From the NCBI GenBank assembly GCA_031268145.1, contig JAIRXS010000044.1, forward strand, positions 1 to 54,490: 54,490 bases of DNA, written 5' to 3'. This document shows positions 16,295 through 28,130 of the stretch, piece by piece. The first letter of the stretch is position 1; each line of letters starts with the position of its first letter. Position numbers and translations under genes: made by a program. The notes beneath the pieces are model-generated. The model saw only the letters and a program-made list of their open reading frames with translations. It was not told the origin of the DNA and searched no databases. This DNA is from Candidatus Endomicrobiellum siamense (GTDB taxonomy: Bacteria; Elusimicrobiota; Endomicrobiia; Endomicrobiales; Endomicrobiaceae).

Positions 16295-17650
16295 CTAATT
16301 TGATTCCAATGCCACTATAACCTCAACATGACTGGTATGCGCAAAAACGTCAACTGGTACGATTTCGATCGGTCTATATTTATCATTTTTAATGATAATT
16401 TGCAAATCTCTTGCCAAAGTAGAAAGATTGCAAGAAACGTAAACAATCCTTTTAGCTTTAGAAGAAAGTAAAAAATTAATAACATCTTTTGTAAGTCCAG
16501 CGCGAGGGGGATCAACAACTATCAAGTCAAATTTGTACTCTGTTGTATTAACCCAGTCCTGACAGCTAGAAACAAAAAATTGAGCATTGCCAATACTATT
16601 TATGACCGCATTTTCTTTTGCATTTACAATTGCCTCTGGTATTATATCGACCCCTACAATTCCCTTAACATTGCGAGCTACAGATAAACCTATAATACCT
16701 GCACCACAATACAAATCCAACAATATATCATGTTTACATGGTCTTAGAAGTTTTAATACTTGGTTATACAAAACTTCTGTGCCTTTTGAATTCGTTTGAA
16801 AGAAAGAAAAAGGAGAAATATTAAAGTAAAAATTTTTACCGCCAACTTCAAGTTTCTCTCTTATAAAAGAATTGCCAGATAATAAAATCAACTTATTTGG
16901 AATTATAGAATCTGACTTTTTATAATTTATAGTCCAATACAAACTGTCAACAAAAACTGAAAGCTCTTTTACAATAGGGTCTAATACATCTTCTCCCACT
17001 GTAAGCTCATTTGTCACTATATTTACAAGAAGTTGACCATTATTTTGAGCTTTACGTAAAACTAAATGTCTAAAAAATCCTTCATGGATTTTATTGTTAT
17101 AAGCAGTTAAATTGCTTTTTTTAGCAAAATTCTTTACTAGCTCCACAACTTTAGAAAAATCTTTATCAGCTATAAAACATGGCGGAACAGAAATATATCT
17201 ATTAAAACTTCCCCTTTCATGAAGACCCAAATCTAACTCGCCGTTATTATTAAAAAAACTAAATTCCATCTTATTTCTATAATACCATTGTACTGGACTT
17301 GGTAGTATCTTAGAAATATTTAGGCCTGTTATAAAACTTAAAAGTTCTTCTAAATACTCTTGTTTTAAAGTTAATTGATTTTCATAAGAAAGATTCTGAA
17401 AACGACACCCTCCGCAAACGACAAAAGACTTACATTTAGGTTTAATTCTATCATCAGATTTTAAAATAATATTCTTTAATATGCCCTCTCTATAAGTTTT
17501 TTTATCTCTTATCACTAAAACTTCTGCTTTCTCTTTTGGTAAAAGCCAATCTGTAAATAAAGCCAAACCATCTTCACATCTACAAAGAGAACGACCAGGA
17601 AAAACAATTTTTTCGCAAACAACAGTAATAATTTTATTTTTTAAGGACAT
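16295..17650 (-). CDS. rlmD: 23S rRNA (uracil-5)-methyltransferase, RlmD/RumA family
   Basis: This is an SAM-dependent RNA m5U methyltransferase. An N-terminal TRAM-like domain is followed by iron-sulfur cysteines (PKCKSFVVCGGCRFQ) and FFQTNSKGTEVLYNQVL. The SAM-binding segment LDLYCGAGIIGLSVA comes next, then VVDPPRAGL. The catalytic Cys segment is YVSCNLSTLARDL. Length 451 aa is typical. Its first 10 bases overlap the end of the response-regulator gene. RlmD (U1939) is the default assignment, but RlmCD-like specificity cannot be excluded. Confidence 0.88.
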   Translation of the reverse strand: MSLKNKIITVVCEKIVFPGRSLCRCEDGLALFTDWLLPKEKAEVLVIRDKKTYREGILKNIILKSDDRIKPKCKSFVVCGGCRFQNLSYENQLTLKQEYLEELLSFITGLNISKILPSPVQWYYRNKMEFSFFNNNGELDLGLHERGSFNRYISVPPCFIADKDFSKVVELVKNFAKKSNLTAYNNKIHEGFFRHLVLRKAQNNGQLLVNIVTNELTVGEDVLDPIVKELSVFVDSLYWTINYKKSDSIIPNKLILLSGNSFIREKLEVGGKNFYFNISPFSFFQTNSKGTEVLYNQVLKLLRPCKHDILLDLYCGAGIIGLSVARNVKGIVGVDIIPEAIVNAKENAVINSIGNAQFFVSSCQDWVNTTEYKFDLIVVDPPRAGLTKDVINFLLSSKAKRIVYVSCNLSTLARDLQIIIKNDKYRPIEIVPVDVFAHTSHVEVIVALESN

Positions 17651-18603
17651 GAACTTACTTCTTTTAAAGACTTTATCTCCTCTTTTGCAGTTTCTAAATC
17701 TAAAAGAGTAGCTTGAAGCTCTGCAATTTTAATTTCTAACTTTTCATACAATTTAGTATTGTTTATAGACTGCATAATTTGAGCAGCAAAAACCAAAATA
17801 TTTTTTAAATCTGATTGAGTAAATGTAGCATCATTAGAAGTTTTTGTAAACAACAAGCACCCAACAACTTTCCCAGTAAAAACTAAGGGAAACACTAAAA
17901 CACATCTAATTTCAATTACAGAATCAAAAATCTCAGAAAATTCTTTTTTTATATTGTCAGCATTAACAATTAAAGGTTCGCTATTATCTGGTCTATCTTG
18001 ATAAATCTTTAGAATAAAACTTTCTAATGCTCCTCTTGAAGAGTCAAACATCGGTACAGAAGACGTTGCTAAATACATCTGTCCTTGCGCATCTTTTAAA
18101 AAAATTGAAACGTCTTTTGATAAAGTTGCGTTCTTAAGTAAAGAGATAAAAATAGGAAAAAGTTCTTCTAGTTTTACGCTTGAAAAGATAGCAGTTGAGC
18201 TTTCATATAAAGCCACAAGTATTTTAAGTTCGCTTTTTTCTATAGCTTTCTCTACTAAAGCAGAAAGTTCATCTATATTAAAAGGCTTTTGAAGAAAATC
18301 ATAAGCTCCGCTACGCATAGCATATAAAGCATTATCTATCGTTGCATGTCCTGTCATCATTATAACTTCTGTTTCTGGAGATTTTTCTTTTATAACTTTT
18401 AAAAGAGAAATACCATCAAATTTTGGCATTTTTATATCTGAAATCACTATATTAAATTTATTTGAAGTAATTTTAGATGCAGCATCTTGCCCATCAACAG
18501 CATACAAAACATCATAACCAAGACTTGAAAACTCTTGAATCAACAGTTCCCTTATATATTGTTCATCATCAACAATTAAAATTTTACCTTTGCTTACAGA
18601 CAT
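17641..18603 (-). CDS. Response regulator with REC and GAF domains, no DNA-binding domain
   Basis: Residues 1-125 are a receiver domain: acidic pair in ILIVDDEQ, phospho-acceptor Asp in IVISDIKMP, conserved Thr in VIMMTGH and Lys in FLQKPF. The middle, about 130-290, reads as a GAF-like sensory domain (VLVFPLVFTGKVVGCLLFTK). The last 35 residues are a coiled coil (KLEIKIAELQATLLDLETAK). No HTH, GGDEF or HD output is present, so output is probably by protein interaction. It lies between yajQ and rlmD in one array, with no histidine kinase nearby. REC is certain; GAF is a pattern call. Confidence 0.85.
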   Translation of the reverse strand: MSVSKGKILIVDDEQYIRELLIQEFSSLGYDVLYAVDGQDAASKITSNKFNIVISDIKMPKFDGISLLKVIKEKSPETEVIMMTGHATIDNALYAMRSGAYDFLQKPFNIDELSALVEKAIEKSELKILVALYESSTAIFSSVKLEELFPIFISLLKNATLSKDVSIFLKDAQGQMYLATSSVPMFDSSRGALESFILKIYQDRPDNSEPLIVNADNIKKEFSEIFDSVIEIRCVLVFPLVFTGKVVGCLLFTKTSNDATFTQSDLKNILVFAAQIMQSINNTKLYEKLEIKIAELQATLLDLETAKEEIKSLKEVSSCP

Positions 18604-19238: not shown

Positions 19239-19306
19239 TTCTTACCTCCTAATTAACAATAAAATGAACTTGTATTGTACTTTATTTTACTAGTTCTATC
19301 AACACC

Positions 19307-19352
19307 GTTGGAGTCAAATAGATAGGGTTCTTATTAGATTGAAGAATTCCAT
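19307..19352 (-). mobile_element. Transposase 3'-end relic, inverted relative to the copy at 26.8 kb
   Basis: Reading the minus strand from 19352, the bases match 26797-26841 with about four substitutions and one indel. Both begin ATGGAATTCTTCAA. Both encode the MEFFNLI end of an IS481/rve-type transposase. Farther upstream (about 19420-19480) a weaker LRYF resemblance is visible but is full of stops. The rest of 19239-19600 holds no intact gene. This marks the left edge of the accessory island. Confidence 0.6.
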
Positions 19353-19599
19353 TAAATTTTCTCATAATTTTACGCTCTTTCTGACAAGTCAAATAACCAA
19401 CAGAGACAATCCTATTGTTGTTCACAATTTAAGAACATTGCCTACTTGAAGTTAAAGAAATATCGCAATTTTGACTTTGCACTTTGCGTAAAAGTTTTAT
19501 TTTACCAATAACAGCTTTTGTCAAAATTGTCGGTTTAAGCAAGTGGTTTAGTCTTTTGCTTTTTAGGATTATCGCTTTGTTCTAAAATCTTACGCTTGC

Positions 19600-21003
19600 G
19601 TTCCTCTCGAAAATGCTCAAATCTATAATGATATAGAAATTTTAAAAAGCCAAGCTGACAGTAGACCAATAAATTTTGTTGTTATTTATTCGGGAATGTT
19701 AAAAGATACAATAAGTCTTACTGGGATGTTCGTATTGCTTGGAACATTAAATTGGTGGATTCCATTTTTGATGCTATTAACAACTCTACCTTATTCTTTT
19801 GTTGTAATCAGATTGCAAGCAGCTACATGGAGTTCTTTATTATCTGGAAGCGTTGAATCTAGAAAAATGACCTATTTTAGTTTTTTAGCGCTCACTAATC
19901 TTTATGCTAAAGAAATAAGATTATTTAATTTTTCTAATTTCTTAATAAAAAATTTACAGAATCATTTTTAAAATTACATAAAACCATGAAAAAAGTAAGA
20001 GTTGAAAAATTATTGTTTATATATCCAGCAATTATTCTAGCAATCAGTGGCAATACTTTTGTATTCTGGTGGATAGTAAAATCCACATTGAAAGGTTCTA
20101 TCAAAATTGGCTCAATTGTTTTGTTAATTCAGGCATTATCACAAAGTCTTTATTACTTAGTAGGTTTATTAGAAAATTTTGGATACCTGTACGATAAAAT
20201 ATTATTTTTTGATAAATTTTTAATTTTCATGCAATATAAATCACCATTTCATCAAAAAATATTCTTGCCAGTTCCAGAACAATTTGAATCTTTATATTTT
20301 CAAAATGTATCTTTTAAATATAATGACAGAGATTTAGTATTAAATGGATTCAATTTAAGAATTAAAAAAGGCGAAAAAGTTGCTATTGTTGGTGAGAATG
20401 GATCGGGTAAAAGTACTCTGGTAAAACTAATTATGAAGTTTTATGAACCTACAGAAGGAAATATTTTTGTAAACAATATAAATTTAAAGAATATTTAAGT
20501 GCAGTTTTTCAAGATTTTGGGAAATATCATTTAACCATAGGAGAAAATATAAACATTGGAAATGGAATAAAAAAAAATGACTTTTCAATTATTAATGCTG
20601 CAAAAAAATAAATATACATGACTGGATAGGAAATATGCCAAATGAATATAATACACAATTAGGAAAAGAGTTTGACGGAACAAATTTATCTGAAGTTCAA
20701 TGGCAAAAAATCGCATTAGCAAGATCAATTATAAAAAAATCTAGTATCATAATTCTAGATGAACCGACAGTTTCATTGGATCCTAAAAGCGAATATGAAA
20801 TATTTTCTAAGTTTTCAGATCTAACAGAAGGGAAAACGGCATTAATGATTACACATAGACTCGGTTCTATTCAAAAAGCTAATAGAATTATAGTAATTGA
20901 AAAAGGAAAAATTATAGAAGATGGGACTCATAATGACTTAATAAAAATTAATGGAAAATATACTAATTTATATAATATTCAAAAAAACTTATATGAATTT
21001 TAA
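19600..21003 (+). pseudogene. ABC exporter (peptide/bacteriocin type), decayed into pieces
   Basis: The pieces together encode a membrane domain and an ATPase. The membrane part starts near LENAQIYNDIEILKSQ (about 19600) and lacks its N-terminal helices. It runs to about 19955, where one missing A in an A-tract shifts the frame. It resumes as TESFLKLHKTMKKVRVEKL. The ATPase has an intact Walker A (VGENGSGKSTLVKL). A small deletion at about 20495 breaks the frame before YLSAVFQDFGKYH. An A7 tract at about 20612 (eight A would restore the frame) breaks it again. The last piece has an ABC-signature position reading LSEVQWQKIALARS and Walker B SIIILDEP. The HRLGSIQKANRI segment is intact. Confidence 0.85.
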
Positions 21004-21104
21004 TTTATACTTTGAATATTTATTTTTTATATTTTTTGGCCAAGACTGTTCTTCCATATATGTCTATTGCTATTATAAAACAACACCTTACTTCTTTTTC
21101 TTTT

Positions 21105-21806
21105 TCATTTAGATGTATACTGTCTACTTGTACTATCTCCACAGACTCTTTTGTTTGGATCCCTTTGCCCCTCTCTTTGTGTTCGATAGGAGATAATGTC
21201 TTTTACTGAGACTACAGGAATATTATGTTGTCGAGAGAATTCCATAATTTCTGGCATCTTTGCCATACTTCCATCTTTATTAGTAAGCTCACACAGCACA
21301 CCATATGGAGGAAGACCTGCAAGTCTCATCAAATCTACTGTGGCTTCTGTATGTCCTTGTCTCTCCAGAACTCCACCAGGTCGTGCAATTAATGGGAAAA
21401 TGTGTCCTGGCTTGCAAATATCTAACGCACTAGCAGAATCTTTTATTGCCGCTTTTATTGTTGTAATTCTATCAACTGCCGATACTCCTGTTGTAACACC
21501 TGATGCAGCTTCAATGGAGACAGTAAATGCTGTCCCAAAACGACTAGTATTGTTTTCAACCATCAAGCTAAGCTCAAGGGCAGATGCTTTTTCTGATGTG
21601 ATACAGAGACAGACGATTCCGCTGCATTCGCGAATTAGCATTGCCATTTGTTCTCTATTTAGGCTAGCTGCAGAGAAAATTAAATCTCCTTCATTTTCAC
21701 GATCTTCGTTGTCAACAACTAAGACTCCTTGGCCCGTTTTAAGTGAAGTAAGTGCAGCAATAACTTGTTCTGTTGGGGTAGAGTAAAGCCTTGGATTTTG
21801 ACTCAT
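21105..21806 (-). CDS. ribB: 3,4-dihydroxy-2-butanone 4-phosphate synthase
   Basis: RibB converts ribulose 5-phosphate to the four-carbon precursor of riboflavin. The active-site acidic loop is [11 protein letters not shown], followed by IRECSGIVC, the substrate loop [22 protein letters not shown], and [16 protein letters not shown]. Length 233 aa matches stand-alone RibB; there is no GTP cyclohydrolase II half. The ATG at 21806 has AAGGAGGG just upstream and is preferred to the longer frame starting at 21869. By eye the gene is richer in G and C than its neighbours and reads like a proteobacterial RibB, suggesting acquisition. No FMN riboswitch is visible upstream, and no other rib gene is in the window. 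Confidence 0.93.
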
Positions 21807-22114
21807 GATCCCTCCTTTGATATGGCATAGGGGCACTACAAAGAAAACACACTTTAACAGCAAACTCAATTATTAATAAGCAATTGTCGTGATTCTCTTT
21901 CATCTGACTTGTTCGTGGGTTCTAGAATTAGATTAGATTTACTAATAATTTCTATCAAAAATTTGATTCACCAAGAATATCTATGCGATTTAAGGCGTTT
22001 GTATTTCAGATACTTCATTAGCGCTTAGCGACAGAGATAAGCTTCACGTATACCTATAAGCTGATGACCCAAGATTAGCTGTCAAAGTATTTTACCTTTT
22101 AATTACAAAGCATT
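21807..22114 (-). other. Gene-poor gap between the cyclase gene and ribB
   Basis: There is no intact gene here. On the minus strand, about 21875-21970, a short open stretch reads NLILEPTNKSDERES and ends in a stop; it looks like the tail of a lost gene. The conserved FMN-riboswitch core (GGGGUGAAAUUCCC type) is absent ahead of ribB. No convincing terminator or promoter is seen. Confidence 0.4.
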
Positions 22115-23230
22115 CTAGTGATACATTACGTTTCTCAGTAGATTAAGAGAACTATCAATTTCTTTCTTGGTAACATCATTAGCAAATATACACTTACCTA
22201 GCCCTTGTGGCAAGGGTATGCGCTGAAATCCACTTCTATGATTTATTCTTTCTTGAACACTTTCCCATAAAATCTCACTCGTGATATTAGGATGAAAACA
22301 AGGAAGACCCAGACATTGCATTAGATTGAATATTCTTTGTAATTGGTTTTCACTAATATGGTTTCTGACTAATGCAAGACAAGCTGAATATGCAATATCA
22401 ACTGCTACGGCTTCTCCATGAAGCAATGGGGATTCTTTAATCATTTCAAACGGCAAGCTAAACGTATGTCCAAAATCAACGCAGCGTTCCAAATTGTCTT
22501 CAAATAAATTCGGCTCAAGTTCTTCGACTATGTCAATAATTGATTGGTTAAGAATGTAACTAGATTCTTCATTTTGAAAATTTGAATCGATGGCATTTTT
22601 GCCAAAACTCTCTAAATATTCAAAAAGTTTTGCATTTTTTATTAATGCTATCTTAACTATTTCTCCAGTTCCATTTATAATATGCCGTTTGGGTAGAGTT
22701 TTTAGAAAGGACCTGTCCAAATATACAAATTGCGGTGAATCAAAAGTGCCAAGGCGATTTTTATGTCTATCCAGATTGATACCAGTTTTAATACCAACAG
22801 ATGCATCTACATATCCCATTAATGTTGTGGGAATGCTTATATGTGGAACTCCTCTACGATAGCAACTTGCAACAAAATTGCCAACATCCATAAGAACTCC
22901 ACCACCTATTACAATTATCGGTTCATTTCGTCTATCAACGTCAAACTCTGCAAGTTCTCGTGCTATATATAAGAATGTATCTATATTCTTATTTAGTTCA
23001 CCTGCTTCCACTGGTATAATTTTATAATTAGATGTAAATTTAGCGAGGTATTTATGGATCTTATCATGATATTTATCTGCTATAAATGAATCTACAATAA
23101 TAAATCTCTTGCTACCCATATCGAAGTTTAAAATATTTTTAGTCTCATCAAAGACATCTTCACAAAAAATCAAAGAATAGTCCACTCTCTTTTCAAAAGA
23201 AATTTTAAGTATGTTTTTTGCTATTTTCAT
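22115..23230 (-). CDS. Sugar-phosphate cyclase of the dehydroquinate-synthase superfamily (EEVS-like)
   Basis: This is an NAD- and metal-dependent cyclase of about 371 aa. NAD binding is shown by VIGGGVLMDVGNFVAS. Metal ligands are the Glu of NGTGEIVK, the His of DFGHTF and the His of LLHGEAVAVD. The diagnostic stretch reads IPTTLMGYVDASVGIKTGIN followed by KNRLGTF. Dehydroquinate synthase normally has GGVxGD, LLAQVDSSVGGK and KNLIG. The MD, GYVDA, GIK and NRLG variants resemble 2-epi-5-epi-valiolone synthase and related cyclitol cyclases. The ATG at 23230 is favoured (AGAGG 5 nt upstream) over GTG at 23236. It lies 75 bp downstream of luxS. The product is not proven, and AroB remains an alternative. 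Confidence 0.8.
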   Translation of the reverse strand: MKIAKNILKISFEKRVDYSLIFCEDVFDETKNILNFDMGSKRFIIVDSFIADKYHDKIHKYLAKFTSNYKIIPVEAGELNKNIDTFLYIARELAEFDVDRRNEPIIVIGGGVLMDVGNFVASCYRRGVPHISIPTTLMGYVDASVGIKTGINLDRHKNRLGTFDSPQFVYLDRSFLKTLPKRHIINGTGEIVKIALIKNAKLFEYLESFGKNAIDSNFQNEESSYILNQSIIDIVEELEPNLFEDNLERCVDFGHTFSLPFEMIKESPLLHGEAVAVDIAYSACLALVRNHISENQLQRIFNLMQCLGLPCFHPNITSEILWESVQERINHRSGFQRIPLPQGLGKCIFANDVTKKEIDSSLNLLRNVMYH

Positions 23231-23305
23231 TTTCACCTCTTGTTTTTTGTGAATTAATTGAATTGATGATCATTTGTAGCTATGCTAAATCATAGTTGTC
23301 AATTT

Positions 23306-23701
23306 TTACATTACAATGCCGATTGATCCAAAGTTTTTAATAACCTTGGAAACAACAAATTTCGCTTTGTCAAGGTCATGATCAAGATAATTACCACATT
23401 GCACTTGTGTTTGATATGGAACAAATTGTTCATTTAGAATTCCTTCCAATGTTTCTTTATATTTTAGAATCATATGAGATCTATCTATTTTCCCATAGAT
23501 GCATAAATAAAATCCGGTTCTACATCCCATCGGAGCTAACAGAACATAATTGTTACCTAGAACCCGCCGAAAGTGTTTAATCAATAAATGTTCAAGTGAA
23601 TGTAGCGTGGTTGACTCTATTTCTTCTTTCCCTGAGTTGACAAACCTAAGATCAAAAGTGGAAATCCAGTCTTGGTTCTCTGTTTCTTTTAGGTTTATCA
23701 A
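23306..23701 (-). CDS. luxS: LuxS (S-ribosylhomocysteine lyase), start codon missing or displaced
   Basis: LuxS splits S-ribosylhomocysteine to homocysteine and the AI-2 precursor DPD. All key residues are present: FDLRF, the HxxEH zinc motif in LHSLEHLL, catalytic Cys in APMGCRTGFY, and zinc Cys in QCGNYLDHD. The first possible start in frame is TTG at 23701, giving 131 aa, about 25 short. Homology clearly continues upstream to about 23743 (DSLDHRNVHAPYIRL, the true LuxS N terminus). That part has no ATG, GTG or TTG in frame. The frame runs straight back to the TAG that ends the preceding TIM-barrel gene, leaving only 17 sense codons and no start before the TTG. It may be a start-loss pseudogene, use a rare start, or be made by UAG readthrough. 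Confidence 0.8.
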   Translation of the reverse strand: MINLKETENQDWISTFDLRFVNSGKEEIESTTLHSLEHLLIKHFRRVLGNNYVLLAPMGCRTGFYLCIYGKIDRSHMILKYKETLEGILNEQFVPYQTQVQCGNYLDHDLDKAKFVVSKVIKNFGSIGIVM

Positions 23702-23761
23702 TCGAATGTATGGGGCATGAACATTTCGATGGTCAAGTGAATCACCAAGTGTTGACCACCC

Positions 23762-25015
23762 CTATTCGTCTATTAAGTGCTGAGCTTCTTTTGAATAGTT
23801 GGTAAAAAAGTTCTGTATAAATGAATAGCTTTCAGGTAAAACTTTTTCCCACATCTTAGTATGGTTGTATAATTCAACTGTGACAAATCCATCATATTCA
23901 AGCTTATCTATAAGCTTTAAGCATGTTTTTAGGTCAATCTCGCCAAATCCAAGTCTCTCATGGTAATGTACTTTGCCTTTTACTGTATTGCATATTGCCA
24001 TCTTAATGATTGGATTACTGCCATTTCTTAGATATGCAAGTGCAAGTCCAGTTTTTTCCAAAGTTTTTAAAGAAATGCCCGGGATAGAGTCTGTGTATGC
24101 TTTTACTTCTGTCTTCAAATCGTCAGATATTTTTTGATATTTCAATTCTTCTAAGGCAATATGTCTCACATCTGGCACAAGTTTTTTGAGTGATGCATTT
24201 ACATCGGGATCAAGTTTTTCATAAAAATTCCATATTGTATTTGCATTATGGTACAAAATATCATCACCGATAGAACATATACGATCATCATTGTCGTCAG
24301 GCTGACTTGTAATTTCATTTAAACTCTCTATTTGCCGGAACCTAAGCGCGTGTCCACTTTTTATATCTGCAAGATGCATATATCCAGTATAATTTATGTT
24401 ATTCTCAATTGCTTCTAAATAGTTATCTTCTGTACAGTATGTATGGCCAATATCCATGTGTAGCTTGAATTTATCCGAATTTATAATCTTTATAAGATCA
24501 ACTCCTTCTTTAATTGTTTCAATGAACATTCCTGGTTCTGGTTCAATTACTAAAGTTATTTTTCTATTGCCAATATAAGTTAGAATCTCATCTATTCCAC
24601 TTTTCAGGAATTCAATAGGTTTTATATCTTTATTTTCGATATTCTCTTGCCTTATGTATCCACTTTGAAAGCTTACAATTGGAGTATTTAGTTTTTCGGC
24701 TAAATCCACACCTTTTTTTATAAGCTCAATTCTTTTGGATCTGGATAATGCGTCAAGAGAAATAATTGACGGTTCATGTGGAGTTGTTGATAGAAAAAAT
24801 GTTGTTGCCGTAGAAATGCAAACTGGTTTTATATCTCTTGTCTTTAAAAAATTAATAAGATCATTTATATATTTGTCTGTTGCTCTATATGGATTCAATT
24901 GTTGATCATTAAATGAGAATTCGAATCCTTTAAAGCCAGCATTTTCAATTTCAGAGATTGCCTTACAAACAGGCTCATAGGCCAATCCGTTCAAGCTATA
25001 ACTAAGATTAATCAT
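23762..25015 (-). CDS. TIM-barrel sugar isomerase/epimerase-like protein (AP endonuclease 2 superfamily)
   Basis: The 417-aa protein has the xylose-isomerase-like TIM-barrel pattern. It starts INLSYSLNGLAYEP with AGFKGFEFSF (strand 1). Later segments are VSFQSGYIR, LVIEPEPGMF (metal-ligand Glu), KLHMDIGHTY (Asp and His), YMHLADIKSGH and FVTVELYNH. It is longer than typical members because of an insertion of about 100 residues (about 240-340). It heads a three-gene run with luxS and the cyclase, and luxS follows in the same frame directly after its TAG. I do not recognise the exact substrate. An acyclic or cyclic sugar linked to the neighbouring cyclase is inference. Confidence 0.75.
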   Translation of the reverse strand: MINLSYSLNGLAYEPVCKAISEIENAGFKGFEFSFNDQQLNPYRATDKYINDLINFLKTRDIKPVCISTATTFFLSTTPHEPSIISLDALSRSKRIELIKKGVDLAEKLNTPIVSFQSGYIRQENIENKDIKPIEFLKSGIDEILTYIGNRKITLVIEPEPGMFIETIKEGVDLIKIINSDKFKLHMDIGHTYCTEDNYLEAIENNINYTGYMHLADIKSGHALRFRQIESLNEITSQPDDNDDRICSIGDDILYHNANTIWNFYEKLDPDVNASLKKLVPDVRHIALEELKYQKISDDLKTEVKAYTDSIPGISLKTLEKTGLALAYLRNGSNPIIKMAICNTVKGKVHYHERLGFGEIDLKTCLKLIDKLEYDGFVTVELYNHTKMWEKVLPESYSFIQNFFTNYSKEAQHLIDE

Positions 25016-25028
25016 CTATTCCTCTCTT

Positions 25029-25192
25029 TTATTTATATAAATTATTTAGGATTCTTGTGTAAATATACATATTGAGCTTAATTAAATCATCAGTATCTAT
25101 TCAAAAATTCTTAAATCTTGTTACATCTTCATACAATTTCTTTAAATCCTGTGTTTTTTCTAATCCCAGGTTGTTTTCTATCAAATATGTTT
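25029..25192 (-). pseudogene. Gene relic just upstream of the TIM-barrel gene
   Basis: On the minus strand one frame reads TYLIENNLGLEKTQDLKKLY and continues through EDVTRFKNF, one stop, then IDTDDLIKLNMYIYTRILNN, ending in TAA. The composition looks like natural protein, but the single internal stop and frame breaks further upstream (25200-25330) indicate a dead gene. The family is not recognised. The end is only 13 bp before the TIM-barrel ATG, so it may once have been the first gene of that operon. Confidence 0.45.
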
Positions 25193-25430
25193 TAAATTAT
25201 TTCCCTATCGCTTGTTGGCAATGAAAAGCTATAACTGTCATAACATTTTTCAATGAACTGTCTTTACTTTTTTCTTAAAAAATAAGCTCTTTTCTTTTTT
25301 AAACTTTACCATTTTCCCTCCAATCTTAATTTTGCATGAATTTAATATCTGCCTTCTGCGTTTACAAAAAATCGAAGATTTTATTCATACTTTTTCATAC
25401 ACACCCTCCTTTTTTTAACGACAAAATGAA

Positions 25431-25470
25431 AAAGCCATTGTCTGAAAAATCAGACAACGGCTTTACTTTT
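25431..25470. terminator. Strong bidirectional hairpin terminator
   Basis: Two 15-base arms (25431-25445 and 25450-25464) pair with a single A-C mismatch around an AAAA loop. The arm begins AAAGCC and ends GTCTGA. A T-rich run follows on the plus strand (ACTTTTTT), and TTTCATTTT follows on the minus strand, so it could end transcription both ways. It now sits between relics. Confidence 0.65.
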
Positions 25471-25507
25471 TTATGAAAAAATGCTCTTGCGGAATTTACT
25501 ACATTAT

Positions 25508-25549
25508 ATGTTGTATGCTGTATGTTGTATGCTGTATGTTGTATGCTGA
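25508..25549. repeat. 14-bp direct tandem repeat, three copies
   Basis: The unit ATGTTGTATGCTGT occurs three times head to tail with no spacers (the last copy ends in A). This is a slippage-type minisatellite, 37 bp after the hairpin terminator. No coding or regulatory role is evident. Confidence 0.85.
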
Positions 25550-25763
25550 AATCTGCATTTTTTCCCCTTTGTTAACTTAGCATGTATTTTACAAAATATT
25601 ATCGCAAAAAAACAAGTTCAAAATTTCCTATATTACTTTCTTCTTTAAATCACCTTACACTACTACATCCATCTTTACATATAGGCACTAGTTTAATTTT
25701 GTCCTTCACTAAAGGTACAATTAATAATATATTTTTCAATTTCTTCACCTATTTAATACAACT

Positions 25764-25919
25764 TTAGTGATTACAACGCGAAAAATAAATGTTTACTAAA
25801 TTCTCATATGACATTGTACACGTTCTTAGTTGATTAAAACTGTTATGAAGTAGAAGATTCCTTGCGCCACGAATTGCATTTTCAAAATTAAACACCTTAT
25901 AATTACTTATTTCTAACAT
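25764..25919 (-). pseudogene. 51-codon remnant with a ribosome-binding site
   Basis: A GGAG lies 9 nt before an ATG at 25919. The first 21 residues (MLEISNYKVFNFENAIRGAR) resemble the start of a conserved hypothetical protein found in Firmicutes and phages, recalled from memory. Afterwards the sequence diverges (NLLLHNSFNQLRTC) and stops. It is probably a truncated or frameshifted gene. The gap 25550-25763 shows nothing convincing. Confidence 0.35.
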
Positions 25920-25994
25920 TTATCAGCGCTCCTTTACTTATTTAGTTTAGGTATTTCAAAACTTTCTAAGCCATATAAATAATGAAATTTTTAA

Positions 25995-26075
25995 TTACAT
26001 AAAATGAATATCTTTTTCCAATCTAACTATAAATTCCACAGATTTAGATTTAAAAACTGCTGCGTTTCTTGACAT
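25995..26075 (-). pseudogene. 26-codon remnant, possible four-helix-bundle (S23-type) protein start
   Basis: The ATG at 26075 opens MSRNAAVFKSKSVEFIVRLE, which resembles the first helix of the four-helix-bundle (23S rRNA intervening-sequence) protein family. It stops after 26 codons and nothing of the remaining helices is seen downstream. The assignment rests on a short match and is weak. Confidence 0.3.
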
Positions 26076-26214
26076 TTTATTATTTTGAGCTATAATCTGT
26101 AAAGGGATTGTAGTATCTCATAACTCAAACCACCAGAAAAAGAAAAGGAAGAAAAAATAAAGCAAAGGGAAAAATAAAGTATATTATAAAAGAAGTTTAA
26201 GCGTAAAAAGCTTT

Positions 26215-26480
26215 ACAGTCATTATTGATAATAATTAAAAGTTTACGCATAATAGCAACCATTTTGAGTTTGCCATGATTAAGAAGATGATGATAAAAAG
26301 CCTTTAAAGCAAGGTTATGTTTAATAGCAACAAGAACGCACATAAAGAGAGATCGTTTAACCAAAGGTCTGTACCAAGGGAAGTTGTGTGGTGCTTAGAA
26401 GAAGAGCCAGAGTCATTGGCAAAAGAAGCAAGGCCAGCCAAAGTAGCAATTTGCCTACGATTAATAAGGCCAAGTTCAAA
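26215..26480 (-). mobile_element. IS110-family transposase C-terminal relic
   Basis: On the minus strand, 26480 to about 26406 encodes ELGLINRRQIATLAGLASFA followed by NDSG. After a frame change, 26370 to about 26220 encodes RPLVKRSLFMCVLVAIKHN and then ALKAFYHHLLNHGK and RKLLIIIN. These are the Cys/Ser-rich C-terminal segments of IS110-type transposases. The DEDD catalytic half is missing, so it is inactive. The 62-codon plus-strand frame here is only its antisense shadow. Confidence 0.75.
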
Positions 26481-26595
26481 TAGACCTTATCGGCAAAGAA
26501 ATTAGGCAATTTTGCACTTACAGCCTTAAGTATAAATTAAGCGTCCATCAGATTTATGAACAGGTAAGAAGCAAAGATGCCACTGATTTTTTGTC

Positions 26596-26877
26596 TTGCC
26601 ACCTGGCAAGCCTAACTTAAATGCTGGCCTTAAAAGGCTTAAGAGAACTTGCCAAGAAGAATACTTCTTGCGCTATTTCAATGAACTAGATTGCGATTTT
26701 AATTCCTTGCAGCAATTTGTCAAACAAAAACAATTTGACTACAATTACAATAGACTTCATCCTTCCTTAGTTGTAAATAACCCTACCTTTACACCCATGG
26801 AATTCTTCAACCTAATAGGACCCTATCTCTTTGACTCTAACACACCTTGTAACGCCCATTCAGAATACTCTTTTTAA
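26596..26877 (+). mobile_element. IS481/rve-type transposase C-terminal relic
   Basis: The 93-codon frame encodes the end of an integrase-core transposase: LKRLKRTCQEEYFLRYFNEL, QFDYNYNRLHPSL (the conserved RxHxSL box) and TPMEFFNLIGPYLFDSNTP. The catalytic DDE residues upstream are missing or frameshifted; 26520-26595 shows only fragments. Its last part matches the inverted relic at 19307-19352, so the two bracket the accessory island. Confidence 0.75.
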
Positions 26878-26945
26878 AAGAGTAACAGCTAATATAAATT
26901 GCAACATTATTTTATCTTTGATTATTCTTAGAATTCAAATTAATT

Positions 26946-28130
26946 TTAAAATTTTTTATACACTGGCGACATCAAACGTAACTTTTCAACAGTCTTAGGC
27001 AATTGTTCCAAAACATAATCAACATCATCTTGGGTGTTATAGTGTCCAAAAGAAAATCTTATAGCTCCTTGAGCAGACACAGGGTCAACACGCATGGCTT
27101 GCAAAACATGTGAACCACCACCAAATCCTATCGCACAAGCAGAACCCGTAGAAGCAGCTATACCATACATGTCTAACATTACAAGCAAAGCTTCACCCTC
27201 TATATACTTAAAACTTACATTTAAAATATTAGAAATAGCCCGATTACCACTTCCATTAACTATTATTTCTGGGATTTTTTTTATAATCCCTTCTTTTAAC
27301 TGTTCTCTCAAAAATAATACATGCTTATCATTTTCTTCCAAATTAGCATTTGCTATATCAAATGCTTTAGCAATACCGACAACATAAGGAATATTTTCCG
27401 TACCTGGACGAAGTGCATTTTCTTGACTACCCCCAAAAGTTATAGGTTCAATTTTTGTTCCTTTTCTTACATATAAAACGCCTATACCTTTTGGAGCGTA
27501 AAACTTATGCCCCGACATTGTAAGCAAATCTACTTTTAATGTTTTAACATTTAAACAAACTTTCCCCGCTGTTTGAACTGCATCTGTATGAAAATAAATT
27601 TTATTTTTTCTATTTGCATTTATTGTTTGTAAGTAGGTTCCTATTTCCTCTATAGGCTGTATAGCCCCTACCTCATTATTTGCATGCATCACACTTACAA
27701 GGACAGTGTCCTCTCTAATAGCTTGTTTTAAGTCATTTAAAGAAATGACCCCGTCTTTGTCCACGTCAAGGTAAGTTACGCTATAGCCATTTTTTTCAAG
27801 ATGTTGACAAGGATACAAAACAGCATGATGCTCAATTTTCGTAGTAATTACATGACCTTTTGTATCTTGAGTGTTTACTATACCAAAAATTGCGATATTG
27901 TCCGACTCAGTACCACACCCTGTAAAAAATATTTCATCTATATTAGCGTTTAAAAGAGAAGCTATTTTTTCTCTGGAGTTATTTAAAGCTTTTTTTGTTT
28001 GTCTCCCAAAAGAATGAATACTTGCAGCATTCCCATATATGTCAGAAAAGTACGGTTCCATTTCTTTTATAACTTCAGCATTTACTATTGTAGTAGCGCT
28101 ATTATCCAAATAAACTTTCTTTTCTTGCAT
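26946..28130 (-). CDS. Cysteine desulfurase (NifS/IscS family)
   Basis: This PLP enzyme mobilises sulfur from cysteine for Fe-S cluster and thio-nucleoside synthesis. It shows YLDNSATT at the start, SVMHANNEVG, HTDAVQTAGK, the PLP Lys in MSGHKFYAPKG, and the catalytic Cys in STGSACAIG. Length 394 aa is normal. The loop around the catalytic Cys and the absence of an iscR/iscU neighbour fit a NifS-type enzyme. It follows mltG by 4 bp. In this window its likely clients are hydrogenase Fe-S clusters and MnmA (inference). Confidence 0.93.
   Translation of the reverse strand: MQEKKVYLDNSATTIVNAEVIKEMEPYFSDIYGNAASIHSFGRQTKKALNNSREKIASLLNANIDEIFFTGCGTESDNIAIFGIVNTQDTKGHVITTKIEHHAVLYPCQHLEKNGYSVTYLDVDKDGVISLNDLKQAIREDTVLVSVMHANNEVGAIQPIEEIGTYLQTINANRKNKIYFHTDAVQTAGKVCLNVKTLKVDLLTMSGHKFYAPKGIGVLYVRKGTKIEPITFGGSQENALRPGTENIPYVVGIAKAFDIANANLEENDKHVLFLREQLKEGIIKKIPEIIVNGSGNRAISNILNVSFKYIEGEALLVMLDMYGIAASTGSACAIGFGGGSHVLQAMRVDPVSAQGAIRFSFGHYNTQDDVDYVLEQLPKTVEKLRLMSPVYKKF

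Follow-up and report, generated by a model that had tools for sequence, protein, structure and literature searches.

The luxS-like gene in the window (the whole stretch of DNA analysed, 54,490 nucleotides of Candidatus Endomicrobiellum siamense, contig JAIRXS010000044.1) most likely lacks a usable beginning as a result of its decay into a dead gene, and not through some unusual mode of translation. We assign a probability of about 65% to the reading that a mobile element, inserted recently into a reduced, symbiont-like Elusimicrobiota genome, carries the gene as cargo and that the gene is on its way to becoming a pseudogene. This reading draws on an insertion, a missing in-frame start codon, a missing conserved N-terminus, a search that did not find Pfs in this genome, and a pseudogene next door (Table 1). 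The luxS finding is real and its explanation probably ordinary.

Table 1. Coordinates of the insertion, its ends, its cargo, and the luxS junction within the window.
Feature	Position	Strand	Evidence or remark
Inserted element, 7535 bp (7.5 kb), inverted IS-derived ends	19307..26841	.	Absent at matching site in 5/5 sisters
Direct repeat ACACC, 5 bp, left copy, target-site-duplication-like	19302..19306	.	
Direct repeat ACACC, 5 bp, right copy	26842..26846	.	
Left end, transposase 3'-end fragment, inverted relative to right end	19307..19352	-	89% over 45 nt
Transposase remnant (integrase core piece), holds right end 26797-26841	26587..26874	+	PF13683 rve_3
ABC exporter remnant over several reading frames, pseudogene	19567..21003	+	PF00005, TIGR03375
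ribB-like DHBP synthase, open	21105..21812	-	PF00926 E 2e-79; TIGR00506
Sedoheptulose-7-phosphate-cyclase-like gene, open	22115..23230	-	Solved relative 4p53
LuxS-like frame without start codon	23306..23761	-	PF02664 E 9.4e-35
Junction stretch, no LuxS-like coding signal in frame; out-of-frame GTG 23759, TTG 23748, GTG 23745	23737..23761	-	
TAG stop closing TIM-barrel gene	23762..23764	-	
Xylose-isomerase-like TIM-barrel gene, 417 aa, open	23762..25015	-	PF01261 E 5e-33

The preliminary description of this DNA had placed luxS in frame behind the UAG stop of a TIM-barrel gene, with no start codon of its own, and this was confirmed: 151 open codons follow the TAG directly, beginning with GGG (23761-23759) and ending at the stop at 23306. 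Its statement that no ATG, GTG, or TTG occurs in that frame between the TAG and the first TTG also held. This TTG (23701) comes after 20 codons and leaves 131 aa, and the only in-frame near-start between the TAG and it is ATT 23707. All the starts between the TAG and the conserved LuxS region are out of frame, and one of them, GTG 23759, opens a frame of five codons whose TGA lies close to where LuxS similarity begins. That luxS shares the frame of the upstream TAG is a 1-in-3 coincidence.

In alignment, residue 8 of the LuxS frame fell on residue 8 of B. subtilis-type LuxS chains, which we take to come from that species, and residue 1 stood opposite Met1. A start is therefore expected at the TAG or within a few nucleotides of it. 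LuxS similarity had been described as extending upstream of the first TTG; this proved correct from residue 8-9 onward (S/L before DH), whereas residues 1-8 carried no signal. When the bases of the in-frame codons 1-8, before LDH, were shuffled, 652 of 999 shuffles scored as LuxS equally well or better. One other frame puts a Phe at the right spot and gains +3 to +5 bits, yet 115 of 999 shuffles were as good or better. This out-of-frame N-terminus was set aside as proof of an indel, and a motif of that weakness leaves an indel undemonstrated.

The rest of the frame belongs to the LuxS family. In the profile search, residues 9-143 matched PF02664 at 120.1 bits (cut-off 27), and the NCBIfam equivalog cut-off was not reached (best 135.6 versus 208 bits). 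The earlier claim that all catalytic and zinc residues are kept was correct: H54, E57, H58, C80, C122, R39, and R65 are present, and we assume for them the metal and catalytic roles known in LuxS. The frame differs from other LuxS at its N-terminus, which is incomplete, with neither a start codon nor Phe7 of the SF motif. Phe7, four residues before His11, was found in 33/33 aligned homologues, as was His11 itself. Pro43 and Ala61, otherwise invariant, are also altered. The 33 homologues (L002, L039, L006-L024, and L071-L082) were the loci that passed the motif filter, and all those tried were used.

Across near-invariant columns, the LuxS frame retained 20 of 23, the metal and catalytic positions among them. 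In a leave-one-out comparison, 20 positions did not vary among the other 33 sequences, and the LuxS frame departed at 3 of them; in the list sorted by departures, L024 followed with 2/22 and L007 with 1/21, and the other 31 had none. The frame was also the most divergent of the set (39% to its nearest relative in this comparison), so the three departures may partly reflect divergence, since it lies farther from its nearest relative than the comparison sequences do. The best LuxS relatives found were clostridial-type, at 37-42% identity. Judged from the alignment, the 5' end appears damaged as that of a LuxS gene.

LuxS depends on S-ribosylhomocysteine supplied by the Pfs nucleosidase. None of the 41 genus genomes, this one included, had a match to Pfs/MTAN (TIGR01704), which is a further difference from ordinary LuxS settings; other LuxS-bearing genomes of the same family had a Pfs match in 11/11 cases (G062, G065, G074, G115, G122, G138, G156, G161, G170, G177, and G186). 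The present genome is a draft of 47 contigs, 94.88% complete, and one such draft is no proof of absence; as Pfs was missing in all 41 genomes, many of them incomplete, it is likely absent. The genome measures 1.26 Mb with 31% GC and has an FeFe hydrogenase and a Tad pilus gene, in keeping with a symbiont of the Endomicrobium type.

The luxS frame lies within a 7.5 kb insertion. Inverted IS ends, a target-site duplication, and an empty site in relatives, the marks of a composite-transposon-like element, were all found, and a second comparison of the left and right ends gave 42 nt at 90%. The sisters examined were G015, G021, and G029 (iscS 93-95% identical), G113 (88%), and G018 (83%). In all five, the flanks of the element (left to ~19305, right from ~26866-26956) adjoin: two sisters have a gap of 16-19 bp, a third has 188 bp, a fourth shows a slight overlap, and G018 has 975 bp. 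No blastn match to the island was obtained in any of these five genomes, and three of them carry a single copy of the ACACC stretch with small differences (L061, L062, and L063). The transposase remnant matched PF13683 with E 4.8e-5, below Pfam's cut-off, and only remnants, with no whole transposase able to move the element, were seen in the insertion. The stretch is what a composite-transposon-like insertion would leave. Pseudogenes have been reported in Endomicrobium (PMC4505116), and the available part of PMC8809381 describes abundant horizontal acquisition and possible competence for the genus; the cargo of the luxS island is not mentioned in what is available of the two papers. A short tandem repeat of the TGTATGCTGTATGT type occupies ~25505-25550, a non-coding part of the insertion. 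Outside the insertion, a response-regulator gene (17641-18603) is complete both here and in G018, occurs as fragments in G015, G029, and G113, and was not found in the G021 stretch compared.

From left to right, the cargo consists of a broken ABC exporter, a ribB-like gene, a cyclase-like gene, the luxS frame, and the TIM barrel. Each half of PF00005 is matched by a separate piece of the exporter, the two pieces lying in different frames, and one piece matches TIGR03375. The nearest solved relative of the cyclase-like gene was 4p53 'Cyclase' (E 8e-82), presumably ValA, and plasmid relatives of its protein, at up to 44.5%, are annotated as sedoheptulose 7-phosphate cyclase. The gene exists besides a separate AroB-like gene (G000:C9), which is unusual for a reduced genome. 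Third-position GC is low in luxS, the TIM barrel, and the cyclase, as in host genes, and composition is therefore no marker of foreign origin for them. By gene type, the cargo resembles ebo-type clusters in bringing together a sugar-phosphate cyclase (EboD) and a xylose-isomerase-like TIM barrel (EboE), as the accessible main text of PMC5133447 describes them; it differs in that no EboA, B, C, or F lookalike was recognised in the insertion, and LuxS does not appear in that accessible text.

The cargo proteins were searched for in other genomes. LuxS (P0001) had no match in 34 congener genomes. The TIM barrel (P0002) had no genus match in the 340-genome phylum search and no close homologue in these 340 genomes or in 398 genomes of the phylum of G340; the non-self matches covered part of the protein at 21-34% identity. 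For the cyclase (P0003), the genus gave only 31-39% matches, in 24 of 41 genomes including this one, of the kind that would be expected for AroB. LuxS was matched in 153 of 391 genomes from the class of G340 (best 42%), and neither the TIM barrel nor the cyclase lay near LuxS at any of 12 loci from that class within the retrieved stretches. Viral contigs gave no match for the three proteins; plasmid and phage LuxS matches were at ~40% or below among the matches listed, and one search of genome contigs returned a single LuxS at 38%. No relative among the genomes searched shared the order TIM barrel-luxS-cyclase. With LuxS and the TIM barrel unmatched in the genus and the cyclase matches only AroB-like, this genome alone, of all those searched, carries the cargo. 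In one library, no literature was found that joins luxS or readthrough with Endomicrobium, or luxS with sedoheptulose 7-phosphate cyclase.

These results can be joined in a model in which a horizontally acquired luxS is in early decay. luxS would originally have been the middle gene of an operon with the TIM barrel and the sugar-phosphate cyclase, its start once beside the stop of the gene before it, the usual layout of coupled operons. Some small lesion within codons 1-9, probably an indel, would have cut this start off from the remaining codons, after which little or no full-length LuxS would be made. With no Pfs to supply S-ribosylhomocysteine, the loss of LuxS would be cheap. We infer a real lesion that arose after the island had arrived and that abolished luxS expression. 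Of the three options in the preliminary description (a small lesion near 23743 that removed the start, a rare initiation codon, and UAG readthrough), the first fits best: the conserved N-terminal Phe is absent from the frame, the mobile island around the gene is decaying, and no Pfs was found. The interpretation given there was thus partly supported, and it was silent on the out-of-frame GTGs by the TAG, on the mobile element, and on the absence of Pfs. The frameshifted ABC exporter in the same insertion was counted in favour of luxS decay. Counter to decay, the luxS frame, its 5' end aside, is open over its 151 codons and retains most of the near-invariant residues, and the TIM barrel, cyclase, and ribB genes are open as well, so the decay, if real, is recent. 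None of the five sisters examined holds a luxS copy that could date the lesion.

The main rival to decay, which we consider unlikely, is a sequencing or assembly error that hides an in-frame start at the true junction of a normal LuxS gene. The assembly is a draft in many contigs, and a single erroneous base within codons 1-9 could conceal a start; the remaining frame is open. Long homopolymers are absent at the junction, however, where the longest single-base run is four G; Phe7 and two further conserved residues also depart, and the insertion holds another gene close by that is plainly broken.

A shortened LuxS could instead arise by coupled re-initiation at the in-frame TTG 23701 or ATT 23707. 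The TTG-started frame of 131 codons exists, but its product would be without the first 18-20 residues, including the His11 invariant in all 33 homologues, which makes this route improbable.

UAG readthrough would yield a TIM-barrel-LuxS fusion of ~569 residues, which we regard as very improbable. The two frames are continuous, and the 151 codons behind the stop are the longest such frame among the six TAG-ended window genes examined; behind the other TAG stops, one frame had 57 codons and four had 2-3. A long frame is expected anyway, since luxS lies in the frame of the TAG. Of the 40 window genes, 6 end in TAG, and the fused LuxS part would be without the invariant Phe7. Natural readthrough would be marked by coding signal right behind the stop or by a junction conserved in relatives; codons 1-8 carry no LuxS-strand signal, and no relative with such a fusion or a conserved junction was found among the genomes searched. 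The fusion proposal thus found no positive support.

Programmed frameshifting from an out-of-frame GTG by the TAG into the LuxS frame deserves hardly any credence. The five-codon frame of GTG 23759 does end close to where LuxS similarity begins, but no slippery sequence was recognisable at its TGA, and the context of this TGA presumably differs from the RF2 type. We give just as little weight to the idea that a mobile cyclitol-type cluster (sedoheptulose-7-phosphate cyclase plus TIM-barrel isomerase) took up a LuxS-fold enzyme that acts without Pfs on another sugar substrate, with TAG recoding producing it as a TIM-barrel-LuxS protein. Initiation at a rare codon was rejected, as no near-cognate start was found in the frame before the conserved His11.

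If decay is the right reading, the locus offers a snapshot of gene decay in a mobile island that a reduced genome has only recently acquired, and it warns against taking in-frame abutting genes for fusions. More interesting, and something a specialist might follow, is the combination of a LuxS-like gene, a sedoheptulose-7-phosphate cyclase, and a TIM barrel in a genome that yielded no Pfs.

A natural Pfs-LuxS fusion was noted in G074 (L024, C1:495485-496483), where both domains occupy one frame of 395 codons. As at the present locus, LuxS there ends a longer frame, and the bacterium is of the same family; the G074 frame differs in being continuous without a stop and in having Pfs rather than a TIM barrel as the partner.
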